63,381 nt of DNA from Halothiobacillus sp. (GTDB lineage Bacteria > Pseudomonadota > Gammaproteobacteria > Halothiobacillales > Halothiobacillaceae): NCBI GenBank assembly GCA_020061705.1, contig JAGUXT010000016.1, positions 1-63,381 of the forward strand. Direction: 5' to 3'. The notes beneath the pieces are model-generated. The model was given only the letters and a program-made list of their open reading frames with translations. It had not been told where the DNA came from and did not search any database. Positions 33,651 to 39,160 of the stretch are shown in pieces (the stretch's first letter is position 1; the number at the start of each line of letters is the position of its first letter). The position numbers and the translations under genes are program-made.

Positions 33651-34784
33651 CTATTGATCCGGCTTTGCCGGGTTGTTCAGCTCATAGCTCGTGCTACGCC
33701 CGCCCGCATCCGTTTTCCGCAGCACACCGCGCGTCAGCAAATCGCTGATGTCGCGCAGCGCCGTATCCGGCGAGCATTTGGCAATCGCCGCCCATTTGCC
33801 GCTGGTAAGCTTGCCTTCGAAGCCGTCGAGCAGCCAGTTGAGTAGTTTCACTTGCCGCGCGTTCAGCGGGATCAAAGCCCAACGCTGCCAAAAGCGCGCT
33901 TTGCTCAACACGGCATCCAGCGTGTGCTGCGCCTGATCGACGGCGCGGTGCAGACTGTACAAGAACCAGGCCAGCCACTCAGTGACATCCATCGACTGCT
34001 TCTGCGTGCGCTCCAGAATGTCGTAGTAGGCCGTGCGCTCACGCTGGATTTGCGCCGACAGGCTATAAAAGCGCTGCGGGCTGCCATCGGCGCGCGCCAG
34101 CAACAAATCACCAATGGCACGCGCGATACGGCCATTGCCATCGTCGAATGGGTGCAGGGTGACAAACCACAGATGAGCAAGCCCAGCCTTAATCAATGGC
34201 GGCTCGTGGGGCGCATCGTTGACCCAGTCGATAAAAAGGCGTGTTTCGGCGTCCAGAGCGTCTGCGGGCGGCGCCTCGAAATGCACACGCTGACGACCAA
34301 TGGCACCGGACACCACCTGCATCGAACCGCTGGCATCATCCCGCCAAGCGCCGACGTTAATCTTGGAAAGCCCGGAATAGCCGGTGGGGAAAAGCGCGGC
34401 ATGCCAGCCAAACAAACGCTCCCGCGATAGGGGCGCGTGGCAGTTGACGCTGGCATCAAGCACCATCTCAACCACGCCCTCGACATGACGGTCTACCGCC
34501 GCCAGCGCGCCGATATCCACACCCAGGCGGCGGGCGATGGATGAGCGCACGGATTCAACATTGAGCGTCTCACCCTCGATTGCACTGGTCTTGACCACGT
34601 CCTCGGTCAGCGCGGCGAGACTGGCCTGATCGCGCAGCGCCATGCCGACATCGGCAAGGCGCCCCATCATCAGCCCTTGTGCGCGACTGACCTCCGCCAG
34701 TGGCACAGCCAGTGCCGCCAGGTCGTAGCGCCAGTTTGGCCAATCGCTGGCCTGCCAGATGTATTTGTAATCACCGCTATTCAT
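33651..34784 (-). CDS. Fic-domain AMP-transferase with DUF4172 N-terminus and C-terminal HTH
   Basis: A protein of about 377 aa that likely transfers AMP or another phosphonucleotide to a target hydroxyl. The N-terminal YIWQASDWPNWRYD is the DUF4172 signature. The inhibitory-helix motif TSAIEG (residues 66-71) precedes the catalytic Fic motif HPFDDGNGR starting at H211; both are intact, so this is an auto-inhibited active-type enzyme. A C-terminal winged-helix-like segment follows (GKWAAIAKCSPDTALRDISDLL). The ATG at 34784 gives this length; a GTG eight codons upstream is possible and neither has a clear ribosome binding site. No antitoxin gene is adjacent. Confidence 0.87.
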   Translation of the reverse strand: MNSGDYKYIWQASDWPNWRYDLAALAVPLAEVSRAQGLMMGRLADVGMALRDQASLAALTEDVVKTSAIEGETLNVESVRSSIARRLGVDIGALAAVDRHVEGVVEMVLDASVNCHAPLSRERLFGWHAALFPTGYSGLSKINVGAWRDDASGSMQVVSGAIGRQRVHFEAPPADALDAETRLFIDWVNDAPHEPPLIKAGLAHLWFVTLHPFDDGNGRIARAIGDLLLARADGSPQRFYSLSAQIQRERTAYYDILERTQKQSMDVTEWLAWFLYSLHRAVDQAQHTLDAVLSKARFWQRWALIPLNARQVKLLNWLLDGFEGKLTSGKWAAIAKCSPDTALRDISDLLTRGVLRKTDAGGRSTSYELNNPAKPDQ

Positions 34785-34859
34785 GCGGAGATTATGGGTC
34801 GGATTCACCGCAAAGGCAAAACATTCACAGCATCGCGGCCTGTCTCAGCCGACGGATGA

Positions 34860-35096
34860 TGCGATGGCCTGATACTGCGTGAATGTGATTATGCGAGAAC
34901 TGCCTCCGAGTTTTCCCGCTTTTGGGTGGAACAGGGCATTGATGGCTTGTCGCTGAATGCGGATCGTTTGCTGCGTATGCGGCAGGTGGTTAGGGGGCAG
35001 GAGGATGGGGCGTATGGGCTTTTCCTAATGCGTGCTGCTATGCTCAGGCTTGCCGGAGTTGCTTGTTACCCAATGAGCCATGCTGGCGAAATGTAG
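34860..35096 (+). pseudogene. Relic resembling the C-terminus of PEP synthase/PEP-utilising enzymes
   Basis: A 78-codon open stretch without a good start, bounded upstream by TGA at 34857-34859. It contains FWVEQGIDGLSLNADRLL (34920-34973), which follows the pattern at the very end of phosphoenolpyruvate synthase, FLVxxGIDSISLNPD. The codons after it do not fit the family. No upstream catalytic part is seen. I read it as a decayed gene fragment just left of the cassette array; the similarity is from memory and needs a search. Confidence 0.4.
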
Positions 35097-35207
35097 GGTG
35101 GTGTAGTTTGTTTTCCGGATGTGTCTTGATTTTTTAATGTTCGTTTAAAAATTAATACGAATCATCACCTCAGGACGAGATATACACCTTTTCAAAAAAA
35201 TATAGAT
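35097..35207. other. AT-rich spacer left of the cassette array
   Basis: Visibly more AT-rich than the flanking chromosome, with no coding frame, integrase gene or attI site that I can recognise. Confidence 0.5.
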
Positions 35208-35237
35208 GCCTAACGAGGTGTCTATTACGCGTTATGT
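35208..35237 (+). other. attC-like cassette junction (short)
   Basis: It has the outer boxes GCCTAAC (35208-35214) and GTTATGT (35231-35237) separated by only 16 bases. GTTATGT is complementary to the ACATAAC box that ends the next cassette, as expected for the two ends of one cassette. It is shorter than usual attC sites (about 57 bases or more), so it is either degenerate or truncated. Confidence 0.5.
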
Positions 35238-35258
35238 TAATAAACACGGATCATAAAA

Positions 35259-35561
35259 ATGGCTATAAAAATTGAAACTACGGCGGACAAATTTCCACAG
35301 TTAACACTCCACATTTTTGAAATCCTTATACCTATTATTGGAGAGTGTCTTGGTAATAAACTTAATGTTTACTTGGGTGCTGTTCAGGAATTAGCAAACG
35401 ACGAATCAGATCTAGAGTCTCGTCGAGAGGCTGCTCGCATTCTTCTATATTTGTTACCTGCATTTCGTGATTATCAGTCGAAATCACAAACCGACGGTCC
35501 AGTTTATCCAGCCTGGTTTCAAGGAGTGATAGACGGGAAAAGAGATGATGAAACAGATTAA
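35259..35561 (+). CDS. Unknown small cassette protein (100 aa)
   Basis: A 100-aa protein of no family I recognise. It has an amphipathic helical first half (LTLHIFEILIPIIGECLGN) and an acidic end (GKRDDETD). It lies in cassette orientation between two attC-like junctions. The ATG has no clear Shine-Dalgarno sequence, which is common for cassette genes. A competing antisense frame at 35362-35604 has a better ribosome binding site, so which strand is coding is uncertain. Confidence 0.5.
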   Translation: MAIKIETTADKFPQLTLHIFEILIPIIGECLGNKLNVYLGAVQELANDESDLESRREAARILLYLLPAFRDYQSKSQTDGPVYPAWFQGVIDGKRDDETD

Positions 35562-35604
35562 CAAGGCAGTCCTTATCAATATTTAATTCTGCATCATGGC
35601 TCAT
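35362..35604 (-). CDS. Alternative antisense frame in the same cassette (80 aa)
   Basis: An 80-aa frame opposite the 100-aa cassette gene. It starts with ATG preceded by TTGAGG at good spacing. The translation begins MSHDAELNIDKDCLVNLF and looks protein-like (helical, LSLLETRLDKLDRRF). I cannot place it in a family. Either this or the plus-strand frame may be spurious; both could also be real. Confidence 0.3.
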   Translation of the reverse strand: MSHDAELNIDKDCLVNLFHHLFSRLSLLETRLDKLDRRFVISTDNHEMQVTNIEECEQPLDETLDLIRRLLIPEQHPSKH

Positions 35605-35628
35605 TTTAAAATCCTCAAGAAATGAAAA

Positions 35629-35665
35629 ACATAACGAGCGTATCTTCTTACCCTAAACGTTAGGC
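35629..35665 (+). other. attC-like cassette junction (short)
   Basis: The boxes are ACATAAC (35629-35635) and GTTAGGC (35659-35665). The first is the reverse complement of GTTATGT at the start of the preceding cassette; the second starts the next cassette (TTAGGCATTTA...). The pairing logic fits integron cassettes, though the 37-base length is short. Confidence 0.55.
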
Positions 35666-35687
35666 ATTTACTTACCCGGAGACTTCT

Positions 35688-36374
35688 ATGGACATTAAGC
35701 AAGTTTTGCAGGCCCGCGCAAACAGACGAACTCGCATTGAACAGCCGTTTGCGAACTTTCTTGAGATGGTCCAGCAATGTATTGCCGCGGGTGATTTGGT
35801 GCTTAGCGGATCCGTAGATTCAAAGGTCGTTGTGCTTATTGAGAGGTCTGCAGTTATCTCAACAGTTACGGCAATAGAGGTGTATTACCGAGACATCCTT
35901 GACTTCATCTTTCGTTACTGCTCGCCGAAATTCTTCGAACCACATCTCAAGCAACTTTACCCAGAGAAGTACGACATATCAGATCTTCTGGAGGTCTACC
36001 GTCATCAAGTTCACCCACTAGAACTCGTTTCGGCATATCAGTCCTTCCAAAATATCGAACGGATCGACAAAGTCTTTTCCAAATTTCTTAGCAAAGGTGG
36101 GTTGTGGGACAACGTTCTCCAACTGCAAGTTCGAGTAAAGGACAGCCCAAGCACCGAAAGCTCCTTCACTCACGATGATCTGCTGGCTTTAAAGCGCTTA
36201 TTCGATTTGCGGCACGAATTGGTTCATGATCCCGCTCGCAGCGCTTTCTTTACGGAACAAACAGTTGCGGATATTTGGTCTGCAACGAGCATGATCTTCG
36301 GCTCAGACCTCCTTCTCACACAAGTCATTCAAGCCAACCGCGATCCCGAACTTGCGAATAAGGCGGACGCCTAA
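35688..36374 (+). CDS. HEPN-domain putative RNase (cassette gene)
   Basis: A 228-aa, mostly helical protein. The N-terminal segment (ERSAVISTVTAIEVYYRDIL) matches the pattern of RiboL-PSP-type HEPN domains. The catalytic Rx4H motif is in LRHELVHD (R175, H180). HEPN proteins with this motif are often metal-independent RNases in toxin-antitoxin or phage-defence systems. The gene fills a cassette whose start box is GTTAGGC and whose end box, GCCTAA, coincides with the stop codon. A CCCGGAGA ribosome binding site precedes the ATG. No cognate antitoxin is obvious. Function beyond the motif is inference. Confidence 0.68.
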   Translation: MDIKQVLQARANRRTRIEQPFANFLEMVQQCIAAGDLVLSGSVDSKVVVLIERSAVISTVTAIEVYYRDILDFIFRYCSPKFFEPHLKQLYPEKYDISDLLEVYRHQVHPLELVSAYQSFQNIERIDKVFSKFLSKGGLWDNVLQLQVRVKDSPSTESSFTHDDLLALKRLFDLRHELVHDPARSAFFTEQTVADIWSATSMIFGSDLLLTQVIQANRDPELANKADA

Positions 36375-36380
36375 AGAGGA

Positions 36381-36537
36381 ATCAATGGGGTCAGACTCGA
36401 TTGAAGAATGCCCGGGCGTTACCTGCCGCGTGCTGTTTGAGAACGTACACTTTCTGCCGCTTCACCCGTATCGGCATGGCTTATGCGGTGGGGGCATTGT
36501 TCACGATCAATGATCAATCGAGTCTGAGCCCATTGAT
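36381..36537. mobile_element. 157-bp inverted-repeat element inserted at the cassette end
   Basis: The 24-base arms 36381-36404 and 36514-36537 are inverted copies with one mismatch (outer ends ATCAATGGG...; inner CTCGATTGA). It lies 6 bases after the stop of the HEPN gene, where attC should be, and only the first box GCCTAA remains. No transposase is encoded. A partial copy of one arm recurs at 37900-37922. Confidence 0.72.
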
Positions 36538-36588
36538 CTCCATCTGGTCATTGGAATTGGTCTTATAAAGCTAAGTAAGGAGAAAAGA

Positions 36589-36807
36589 ATGCCCACCGAA
36601 TCTAGAACGACAGTAGGCGGCAAGCGGGGCTACACCATAGAAAAGGTTGTGGTGACCGATGAAGATGGAAACGTGCTCAGTGAATCCTTTGAGTTATACG
36701 ATCCGGACGGCAATTTGATTGGAACCTATCCTTCCCTTGAGGAGGCTGAAGAGGCTTTGGACGAAGAAATTGGTCAACGGCCGCCTACCCCTGGGATGGG
36801 AATGTAA
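36589..36807 (+). CDS. Unknown acidic cassette protein (72 aa)
   Basis: A 72-aa acidic protein of unknown family, with a central beta-type stretch (YTIEKVVVTDEDGNVL), an ESFELYDPDGNLIGTY repeat-like segment and an acidic helix (LEEAEEALDEEIG). AAGGAG lies a few bases ahead of the ATG. A complete attC follows two bases after its stop, so this is the gene of an integron cassette. The start-side box of this cassette is missing, probably lost with the neighbouring insertion. Confidence 0.62.
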   Translation: MPTESRTTVGGKRGYTIEKVVVTDEDGNVLSESFELYDPDGNLIGTYPSLEEAEEALDEEIGQRPPTPGMGM

Positions 36808-36809
36808 TT

Positions 36810-36913
36810 GTCTAACCATCGGTTCCAAGCGACCCGCAAAAGCGGCGCAGGTTTGGGTTGCGTCTTAGCTTGGGTGCGCCGCTTTTGCAGGCGCTTGAAC
36901 CGAAACGTTAGAC
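36810..36913 (+). other. Complete integron attC site
   Basis: A classic 104-base site. The outer boxes are GTCTAAC (36810-36816) and GTTAGAC (36907-36913). The next arms CGGTTCCAAGCG (36820-36831) and CGCTTGAACCG pair except for one extra C, the extrahelical base that orients attC recombination. The inner arms CCGCAAAAGCGGCGCA and TGCGCCGCTTTTGC also pair. Orientation agrees with the plus-strand cassette genes. Confidence 0.92.
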
Positions 36914-36929
36914 CCCTGGAGAAACACAC

Positions 36930-37733
36930 ATGACACTCGACGTAAAAGGCGCAATAGCCTCGATTGAAAGGTGTTTGCGCGAGGCAAGTAACTCTTTTGC
37001 AGAAGATTGCTACGGTCGGAGCGGATCCGATGACGACACCTTCGACGAATCCGCAACTGAGTACTATGTTGAGCGATCATTTGTCGAGCTCTTGATATTG
37101 CTTGAGTCTCTTCAGTTAACCGAGACCTGGCGTCAGGTGGCGGAAATGTTCGAATTGGCGAAAAAGGAAGGCTTAGGGAAAAGCAAGATGGGACCGGATG
37201 AGCCATACTTATTCTGGAACGACAAGATCCGCATGTTCGCGGACGGAGTCGCGGGCATACACGGCTTGGGCGACACAGCAGTGTCTGAGATACGAGACCT
37301 CAAATCAGTGATTAGGAGGTCCGTTTACGCGATTTGCGACACCGCCATTTTTTCAAAGCCCCCTGCTAAGGAGGCTGACGTTCACGACCGGGTTGAGGCA
37401 ATCTTGAAATGCCATTTCGCTGATTTGAAGCGCAAGCCTGCACTGACCAAGCCAATCAAGAATTTTGAACCGGATACTGGGATCCCATCGATCAAAACGC
37501 TTATTGAATTCAAGTTCGTAACTACAAAGTTGGAGGCCAAACGGGTTGTAGACGAGATCCTCGCCGACACAAGTGGCTATCGAACGCCGCAATGGAAGAA
37601 TCTTCTATTCGTCATCTACGAAACCCGCCGAGTTATGCCAGAAGAAGATTGGACAGCCTTGTTTCGAGAGTGCGAACTTGGATCGAACTACGACGCAATC
37701 GTCTTGTCTGGAGATGCCAAGCTGGGGGTCTAA
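36930..37733 (+). CDS. PD-(D/E)xK nuclease, DpnII/MboI-like (cassette gene)
   Basis: A 267-aa protein. The N-terminal 145 residues are helical and acidic. The C-terminal part has the order of a restriction-endonuclease fold: VHDRVEAILKCHFADL (152-166, conserved histidine and glutamate), PD (181-182), EFK (203-205) and a strand LLFVIYE near 226-231. This layout matches DpnII/MboI-type nuclease domains in defence and effector proteins. No methyltransferase is present, so it is not an ordinary restriction system. The cassette starts with GTTAGAC and ends with GTCTAAC over the stop codon. DNA as substrate is inferred. Confidence 0.66.
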   Translation: MTLDVKGAIASIERCLREASNSFAEDCYGRSGSDDDTFDESATEYYVERSFVELLILLESLQLTETWRQVAEMFELAKKEGLGKSKMGPDEPYLFWNDKIRMFADGVAGIHGLGDTAVSEIRDLKSVIRRSVYAICDTAIFSKPPAKEADVHDRVEAILKCHFADLKRKPALTKPIKNFEPDTGIPSIKTLIEFKFVTTKLEAKRVVDEILADTSGYRTPQWKNLLFVIYETRRVMPEEDWTALFRECELGSNYDAIVLSGDAKLGV

Positions 37734-37750
37734 CCATTCGTTCAACCGGA
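37728..37750 (+). other. Half attC site
   Basis: It begins with GTCTAAC (37728-37734) and CATTCGTTCAACCGG, the left half of an attC, but no matching right arm or GTTAGAC box follows. A deletion or insertion has removed the second half. Confidence 0.7.
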
Positions 37751-37783
37751 AGCAGTGGGGCATCACACTAATTAGGATTGAGA

Positions 37784-37939
37784 ATGGGCATCGAAGAATC
37801 AATAAAAACTCGCATTGGTCAGTTGCTCACTCAGAGTAATAGTCACGCAGTTGGCGATGAGCATGGGCAAGCCACGTCAGAGCGTCAGTGTCAAGGGACC
37901 AATAGGGTCGACTCGATTGAAGTAATCCAGCCCGCGTAG
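37784..37939 (+). pseudogene. Truncated cassette gene (about 38 genuine codons)
   Basis: A frame starting ATG at 37784, whose first 38 codons read like the N-terminus of cassette-borne proteins (MGIEESIKTRIGQLLTQSN, then DEHGQATSERQ). It runs at 37900 into a repeat-arm sequence and the 37935-37990 hairpin, and stops at 37937. The downstream body of the gene is missing. The resemblance to other cassette proteins is from memory. Confidence 0.45.
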
Positions 37940-37990
37940 GGTGCGCCGTGCGCACCGATGGGTTCAATGGTGCGCACGGCGCACCCTACG
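37935..37990. repeat. Perfect 22-bp inverted repeat (REP-like hairpin)
   Basis: The arms 37935-37956 and 37969-37990 are perfect inverted copies around a 12-base loop; each contains GTAGGGTGCGCCGTGCGCACC or its complement. It lies 5 bases beyond the rdgC stop and marks the right edge of the cassette region. The same GTAGGGTG start appears at the window end (63334). Confidence 0.85.
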
Positions 37991-37995
37991 AAAAT

Positions 37996-38961
37996 CTAAA
38001 ACGGCGCGTCTGTAGCTTCAGTGCTGGTCGGCATTTTGGGCGCAACACCCAACCCCTGCTGCACCAAGCCCCCAAGCGCCTTGTTCAATTCGCCGATCAG
38101 GGCGCGCAGGGTGAGGTTTTGCAGCGCCAGGGTTTGATCCATTTGCGCCATGGCGTCGTCGTTATCGGCTTGTTCCAGGCTTTCGACCAGGGTGTCGGTG
38201 GGGCGCAGGCTGCGTAGTACGCCTTTGGCTTCGAGCACAAAACTCATGCGCTCGCGCCAGATCAGGCCGAGGCGGGTGACTTGTTTGCCGGAGGCGAGAT
38301 GGCTTTTGACTTCTTCGGCGGTGAGGTCGTGCTTGCGCAGGGTGGCGGTGCCGCCTTCCTCGTCGGGGGAGCTTAGTTCGCAGGTTTGATCCAGTTCGAA
38401 ACCGTCGGGTAGTTGGCGGGTTTCCAGCCATTGGGTCATCAGGCTGGCCCAGTCGGTGTTGGTTTTCCAGCGGGTGACGGGCAGGGAGCCTACGGCTTCA
38501 CGCACGGCGCTGAGCAGGACTTCGGCGTTTTTTTCCGCTGCGGTATCGACAATCACCCAGCCGCTTTGGCTGTCGATGCTGGCAAACAGGCGGCGGCGGC
38601 GCGGGATCAGGCGTGGCAGCAGGGCGTGTTCGATGCCTTCGCGCAATTCTTTCTTTTCTTTCGAGCCGGGGGTGTGGCCTTCGCGTTGCTCAAATTCGCG
38701 CATCTGGTCGGCAAGCTGGTCGCGCACGTAGCCGCCGGGCAGTTTCTTTTCTTCCTGCACAAAGCGTACCGTCCATACGTCATCACAGGCATGAACATAA
38801 GCCTGCGCCTTGTGGCCGAGCACGGGCTCGAAGCCGTGGCTGGCCAGTTCCAGCGTGTTACAGGGGCGAAAGGGCTTGGCGGCAAGCGCACTTTCAAGGG
38901 CGTCAAAGTCAAAAGGCAAGGTGGCATTCAGCGGGTAGAGAGCGAGTGAGCGAAACCACAT
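37996..38961 (-). CDS. rdgC: Recombination-associated protein RdgC
   Basis: A 321-aa ring-forming DNA-binding protein that modulates RecA. The start MWFRSLALYPLNATL matches the conserved RdgC N-terminus, so the ATG at 38961 is used; the frame runs open 57 codons further upstream but without family similarity. Further family segments are PCNTLELASHGFEPVLG and the LPRLIPRRRRLFASID stretch. Length is slightly above E. coli RdgC (303 aa). A core gene bordering the cassette region. Confidence 0.96.
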   Translation of the reverse strand: MWFRSLALYPLNATLPFDFDALESALAAKPFRPCNTLELASHGFEPVLGHKAQAYVHACDDVWTVRFVQEEKKLPGGYVRDQLADQMREFEQREGHTPGSKEKKELREGIEHALLPRLIPRRRRLFASIDSQSGWVIVDTAAEKNAEVLLSAVREAVGSLPVTRWKTNTDWASLMTQWLETRQLPDGFELDQTCELSSPDEEGGTATLRKHDLTAEEVKSHLASGKQVTRLGLIWRERMSFVLEAKGVLRSLRPTDTLVESLEQADNDDAMAQMDQTLALQNLTLRALIGELNKALGGLVQQGLGVAPKMPTSTEATDAPF

Positions 38962-39042
38962 GGCGGTATTGTCATATTTATTTGGAAGGGCGGCGATTAT
39001 CAGTGCCGGGGGCGGGTGGTGCAAACGTGGTTTGAAATTTTT

Positions 39043-39160
39043 AGCCACAGAGGGCGCAGAGTTTTTCGAGGCGTCGGCATGCCGTCGCCATCTTGTTTTC
39101 CATGCGCCTGCGCCTATGCCGTGTTTTTTCACCTCCGCGTGCTCTGTGCTCTCTGTGGCT
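39043..39160. repeat. Inverted-repeat element between rdgC and pepN
   Basis: Arms AGCCACAGAGGGCGCAGAG (39043-39061) and CTCTGTGCTCTCTGTGGCT (39142-39160) form an imperfect inverted pair 80 bases apart. The AGCCACAGAG type of arm is frequent in bacterial intergenic repeats. No coding frame inside. It leaves little room for the rdgC promoter on its left. Confidence 0.7.

Follow-up and report, generated by a model that had tools for sequence, protein, structure and literature searches.

How can a HEPN ribonuclease be carried as a single-gene cassette with no antitoxin gene next to it? HEPN domains with an Rx4-6H motif are metal-independent RNases, typically dimeric, which recur in toxin-antitoxin (TA), abortive-infection (Abi) and restriction-linked systems (PMC3710099; PMC13092281). 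They are recurrent Abi effectors, the RiboL-PSP-HEPN family is distantly related to AbiF/AbiD, and one HEPN family is already known from integron cassettes (PMC3710099). In addition, anti-phage activity is frequent among integron cassettes of no known function, with a share of 20% in V. cholerae (cited in PMC12444791). A one-gene RNase lacking an antitoxin poses a clean question of self-control within a protein of 228 residues. Such a gene was proposed by an earlier note in a stretch of 63,381 nucleotides from Halothiobacillus sp. (hereafter the window), which described a putative HEPN RNase with the motif residues R175 and H180, carried as a cassette and without a neighbouring antitoxin gene.

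The ORF begins with ATG and encodes 228 residues, among which R175-H-E-L-V-H180 is the sole Rx4H motif, exactly as had been read. However, an Rx4H motif occurs in 31% of shuffles of the protein, making the motif alone weak evidence, and the HEPN call therefore rests on the profile. A Pfam profile search matched HEPN_RiboL-PSP (PF18735) to residues 44-182 with an E-value of 1.7e-6 and 28.5 bits, exceeding the curated cut-off of 28.4 bits by 0.1 bit, and no other Pfam family matched. Profile-profile comparison by hhalign with a larger, cleaned family alignment covered residues 40-182 and laid motif on motif, at a probability of 66% and an E-value of 5.6e-5; with a gappy family alignment the probability was 0.4%. 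Of the 26 distant PF18735 members collected from the class, 25 have an R and an H opposite R175 and H180, and these two positions are the sole invariant columns of a 10-sequence alignment. The whole RHELVHD block is identical in the window protein and in both close homologues described below.

Several results point the other way. A home-built family profile gave the window protein 11.8 bits, and one of 2000 of its own shuffles scored higher, so that no clear separation was obtained, which counts against the assignment. Sequence searches of the PDB matched no relevant structure and no HEPN chain, which likewise counts against the reading preferred below. The close homologues both fall below the PF18735 cut-off, the one from Ottowia with 22.5 bits and the one from Acinetobacter without a match. 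The NCBIfam search returned nothing useful. An AlphaFold2 model built from a two-sequence input is mostly helical and too poor for a fold search (pLDDT 45, pTM 0.38). Weighing profile, alignment and conserved pair together, we consider the protein very probably a HEPN, in agreement with the earlier note. Neither finding that the note had named as refuting, a non-HEPN fold by profile or an R-H pair not conserved in homologues, was obtained. The protein appears to be a divergent HEPN of the Pfam RiboL-PSP kind, with a marginal assignment to RiboL-PSP proper.

A Fic gene (33651-34808, minus strand) and rdgC (37996-39132, minus strand) enclose the gene. The DNA around it has a lower G+C content than the neighbouring sequence and can be read as an integron cassette array in decay (Table 1). 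The claim that the gene is carried as an integron cassette is confirmed at the level of sequence by the core site before it, the intact attC downstream, the presence of another cassette at this place in a congener and the attC behind the Ottowia homologue. The window gene's own attC is not intact. Directly behind the gene, a REP-like element occupies the expected place and has probably replaced the site, and what may be left of its R'' box shares bases with the stop codon, like the corresponding box in Ottowia. The RAYT-type transposase gene whose flanking repeats match the ends of this element was recognised by reading. The intact attC further downstream has no equal in quality within the window. 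No integron integrase scored above the cut-off in the genome itself; among the congeners, the G002 copy has a stop codon and the G003 copy is truncated.

Table 1. Features of the cassette array and its borders (positions in the window).
Feature	Position	Strand	Basis
Left array flank, shared with congener; last bases form attI/attC-like site CCTAACGAGGTGTCTATTACGCGTTA	34906..35234	+	330 bp, 91% identical to congener G004 as far as CGTTA, 35230-35234
Left core site GTTATGT, array start, crossover between G and TT	35231..35237	+	homology breakpoint with congener G004, where another cassette stands
ORF P0002, 100 aa, pI 4.6, first cassette of array	35259..35561	+	region of 36% G+C; no relatives found
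Core site GTTAGGC, 5' boundary of HEPN cassette	35659..35665	+	sequence read; fits GTTRRRY consensus; ATG 22 bases downstream
HEPN (RiboL-PSP-like) putative endoRNase	35688..36374	+	PF18735 match; RHELVHD kept; R175/H180 kept in family
RHELVHD, codons 175-181, presumed active site	36210..36230	+	conserved in homologues
GCCTAAA, possible remnant of R'' box of HEPN cassette's own attC	36369..36375	+	inferred from comparison with Ottowia GCCTAAT (L002); position approximate, few bases
REP/RAYT-type inverted-repeat element behind HEPN gene	36381..36537		24-bp arms, 96% complementary; ends match repeats flanking a RAYT-type transposase gene elsewhere in the genome
ORF P0003, 72 aa, acidic (pI 4.05), weak NUMOD1-like stretch, neighbouring cassette gene	36589..36807	+	ORF list, profile search
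Intact attC, R'' GTCTAAC ... R' GTTAGAC	36810..36913	+	7/7 complementary cores; z = -6.3 as ssDNA
Single-gene cassette P0004, DpnII/MboI-type nuclease, helical N-terminal part	36930..37733	+	PF18742, E 4.5e-12; PADLOC Aga_Helical-REase, 2.6e-13
Start of truncated attC GTCTAACCATTCGTTCAA	37728..37745	+	88% identical to start of intact attC
Right flank, array end, common to own genome and congeners	37910..38010		adjoins rdgC; 95-97% identical in G003 and G004

Comparison with two congeners revealed different contents between the same borders. In G004, which shares both array flanks, the slot holds one different gene, HNH-nuclease-like by reading, with an attC-like hairpin of its own (z -7.4). 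In G003, an unrelated insert of 5 kb lies between the same two neighbours, Fic and rdgC, and comprises three unknown genes as well as two PIN-domain (VapC-like) genes. As the contents of the Fic-rdgC gap (33651-38000) differ between the three genomes, the gap is an insertion hotspot in the genus, which was filled by cassette-type recombination in two of the species.

When 84,980 species genomes were scanned by peptide pattern, a method that reaches close relatives only, a single relative of the HEPN protein came up, in Ottowia sp. GY511 (54% identity). The Ottowia cassette contains the HEPN gene alone, with the attC directly 3' and overlapping the stop codon. Over 63-65 bases, this attC shares 88-90% identity with its counterparts in the aac(6')-IIa and catB8 cassettes on resistance plasmids. 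The Ottowia gene has an in-frame TAA just past the active-site motif (L002:655-657), and recognisable sequence continues beyond it, which suggests either a recent loss or a truncated form; the copy may be inactive there, and this counts against the reading preferred below. The neighbouring Ottowia cassette (L002:1037-1540) encodes a second HEPN-like protein, of the MtlR/DUF4145 type, with the motif RNHFAH.

The sole relative among 72,556 plasmids (40% identity) is carried by pALWEK1.5, from an Acinetobacter lwoffii isolated from permafrost. On this plasmid a complete pdif site, ATTTCGCATAACGTGTATTATGTTAATT, follows chrAB genes, and the HEPN gene starts 18 bp further on. The site was considered as an integron attC and rejected, as it carries XerC/XerD arms. 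The position 18 bp behind pdif indicates that the HEPN gene also travels on XerC/D modules. Acinetobacter dif modules, including that with chrAB in these strains, have been described (PMC6449649); the homologue lies beside the chrAB module, whereas the window copy stands in an integron array and not in a dif module. The pdif-bounded stretch of the plasmid (L003:2486-4685) comprises the HEPN homologue, an unknown gene on the opposite strand and a PemK/MazF toxin gene. One gene thus links two cassette economies, with an attC of the mobile-resistance type in Ottowia and a pdif beside the Acinetobacter copy. No relative was found in phage records and viral contigs or in about 800 additional genomes drawn from the phylum and from Ottowia's family, no further homologue in 187 relatives, and no further copy of the gene in genomes sampled from its own order. 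Such a sporadic distribution would be expected of an accessory defence gene. What is unusual about the family is its rarity together with its presence on two unrelated recombination platforms.

Reading motif, profile and gene context together, we infer RNase activity, a dimer, a trigger and phage defence, and propose a HEPN endoRNase that works alone as a dimer, restrains itself, is triggered by infection and acts by abortive infection, its gene being carried as a single-gene cassette on integrons and pdif modules. To this proposal we give a slightly better than even chance. The enzyme would belong to a small divergent branch near RiboL-PSP-HEPN whose single-gene cassettes are spread by integrons and, in Acinetobacter, by pdif modules of the XerC/D type. 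Two chains would pair, and their R175/H180 motifs would together build a single composite active site that works without metal. The long N-terminal half (residues 1-45 and 80-160), which is present in all three homologues, would keep the dimer inactive and recognise a phage-made product or perturbation. Once triggered, the enzyme would cut RNA, either mRNA or tRNA, so that translation stops and the infection is aborted. As activity would depend on the trigger, no antitoxin would be needed, and a one-gene RNase of this kind might be small and safe enough for cassette shuttling by two unrelated recombination systems. Two results count against this proposal, namely that no sensor or trigger domain was recognised in the protein and that no PADLOC model matched it. 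A wider reading, in which these proteins form a new family of infection-triggered, self-contained and antitoxin-free RNases with a built-in sensor, shuttled by integrons and XerC/D dif modules, is offered tentatively, as possible rather than probable. If the family does defend against phage, it would make a compact case for trigger finding.

The same anatomy could also serve a solo HEPN RNase for stress-induced dormancy rather than phage defence, a role that Anantharaman et al. (PMC3710099) proposed for HEPN domains in integrons. However, neither a regulator nor a clear promoter was found in the HEPN cassette, and the DNA nucleases in other cassettes of the array and in the G004 slot fit anti-phage defence better, leaving dormancy an unlikely role. 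The company of the gene, namely the DpnII/MboI-type nuclease in the array, the HNH-like gene in the G004 slot and the second HEPN-like protein in Ottowia, would fit a defence role.

The absence of an antitoxin requires closer inspection. Many chromosomal integron cassettes are TA pairs, and the HEPN protein could be the toxin of such a pair, with P0003 or a small antisense RNA as antitoxin and with the cassette stabilised by addiction. No core site now separates the HEPN stop codon from P0003, the two share one core-to-attC interval (35659-36913), and P0003 is strongly acidic. Yet P0003 begins 215 bp downstream, past the REP-like insertion that accounts for the lost attC, whereas TA operons are normally close-coupled. 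No adjacent antitoxin of a type II TA system is common to the three contexts (window, Ottowia and Acinetobacter): both window ORFs, P0002 and P0003, are absent beside both homologues, and the place of P0003 is taken in Ottowia by the attC directly after the HEPN stop and in Acinetobacter by a gene on the opposite strand. P0003 itself has no relatives in 187 genomes or in the plasmids. We regard the TA explanation as quite improbable. The earlier note's statement that no antitoxin accompanies the gene thus holds for the family; in the window itself, where no core site parts P0003 from the HEPN gene, position alone leaves P0003 a possible, if improbable, antitoxin. Least probable is a HEPN-fold protein without catalysis (an RNA or protein binder like MtlR), or a protein that is not HEPN at all, for although the PF18735 score is marginal, the AlphaFold2 model unusable and HEPN-like MtlR relatives also found as cassettes, neither R nor H has changed in the three close homologues or in 25 of the 26 distant ones, which is unexpected for a non-catalytic domain.

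The proposed solo, infection-triggered HEPN RNase resembles several known systems and differs from each. Like RiboL-PSP-HEPN (PF18735; Anantharaman et al. 2013, PMC3710099), it matches over residues 44-182 with the Rx4H motif in the same place and with a conserved A-x-E stretch in an earlier helix. Unlike that family, it has no endoRNase L-PSP fusion and no ParB neighbour, it scores at the cut-off, it has long N-terminal and middle parts of its own, and it carries RHELVHD instead of the usual RNxIAH. The integron cassette HEPN family represented by PDB 3jrt (PMC3710099) also has an Rx4H HEPN domain carried as an integron cassette, whereas the window protein appears to be of another HEPN family, with no sequence match detectable to any PDB HEPN chain. 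With AbiF/AbiD and other HEPN Abi proteins it would share the solo HEPN architecture and presumed RNase activity; however, no Abi model in Pfam or PADLOC matches it, and Abi function is putative here. Like phage-defence integron cassettes (Darracq 2025, Kieffer 2025 and Getz 2025, as cited in PMC12444791), the HEPN gene forms a single-gene cassette without assigned function, in an array that also contains a nuclease cassette; this array, however, has lost its integrase in the present genome. The locus touches on a wider matter, namely that integron cassettes without assigned function are proving to be a store of phage defences.

Some minor features of the array were also observed. At its left, the short ORF at 34906-35096 is, by reading only, like the 3' end of a phosphoenolpyruvate synthase gene and looks like a remnant. 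An 80-aa ORF on the opposite strand (35362-35604) overlaps P0002, and the segment 35562-35668 between P0002 and the HEPN cassette was unsupported as an ordinary folded attC (z 0.1). P0004 resembles the REase partner of short Argonautes, and no Argonaute adjoins it. REP-like repeats of the RAYT-type transposase family, GGGTCAGACTCGATTG, are found at 36381-36537 and 37900-37935 and have several copies in the genome. Beside rdgC, a perfect 22-nt inverted repeat with a 12-nt loop (37935-37990) is conserved in two congeners.
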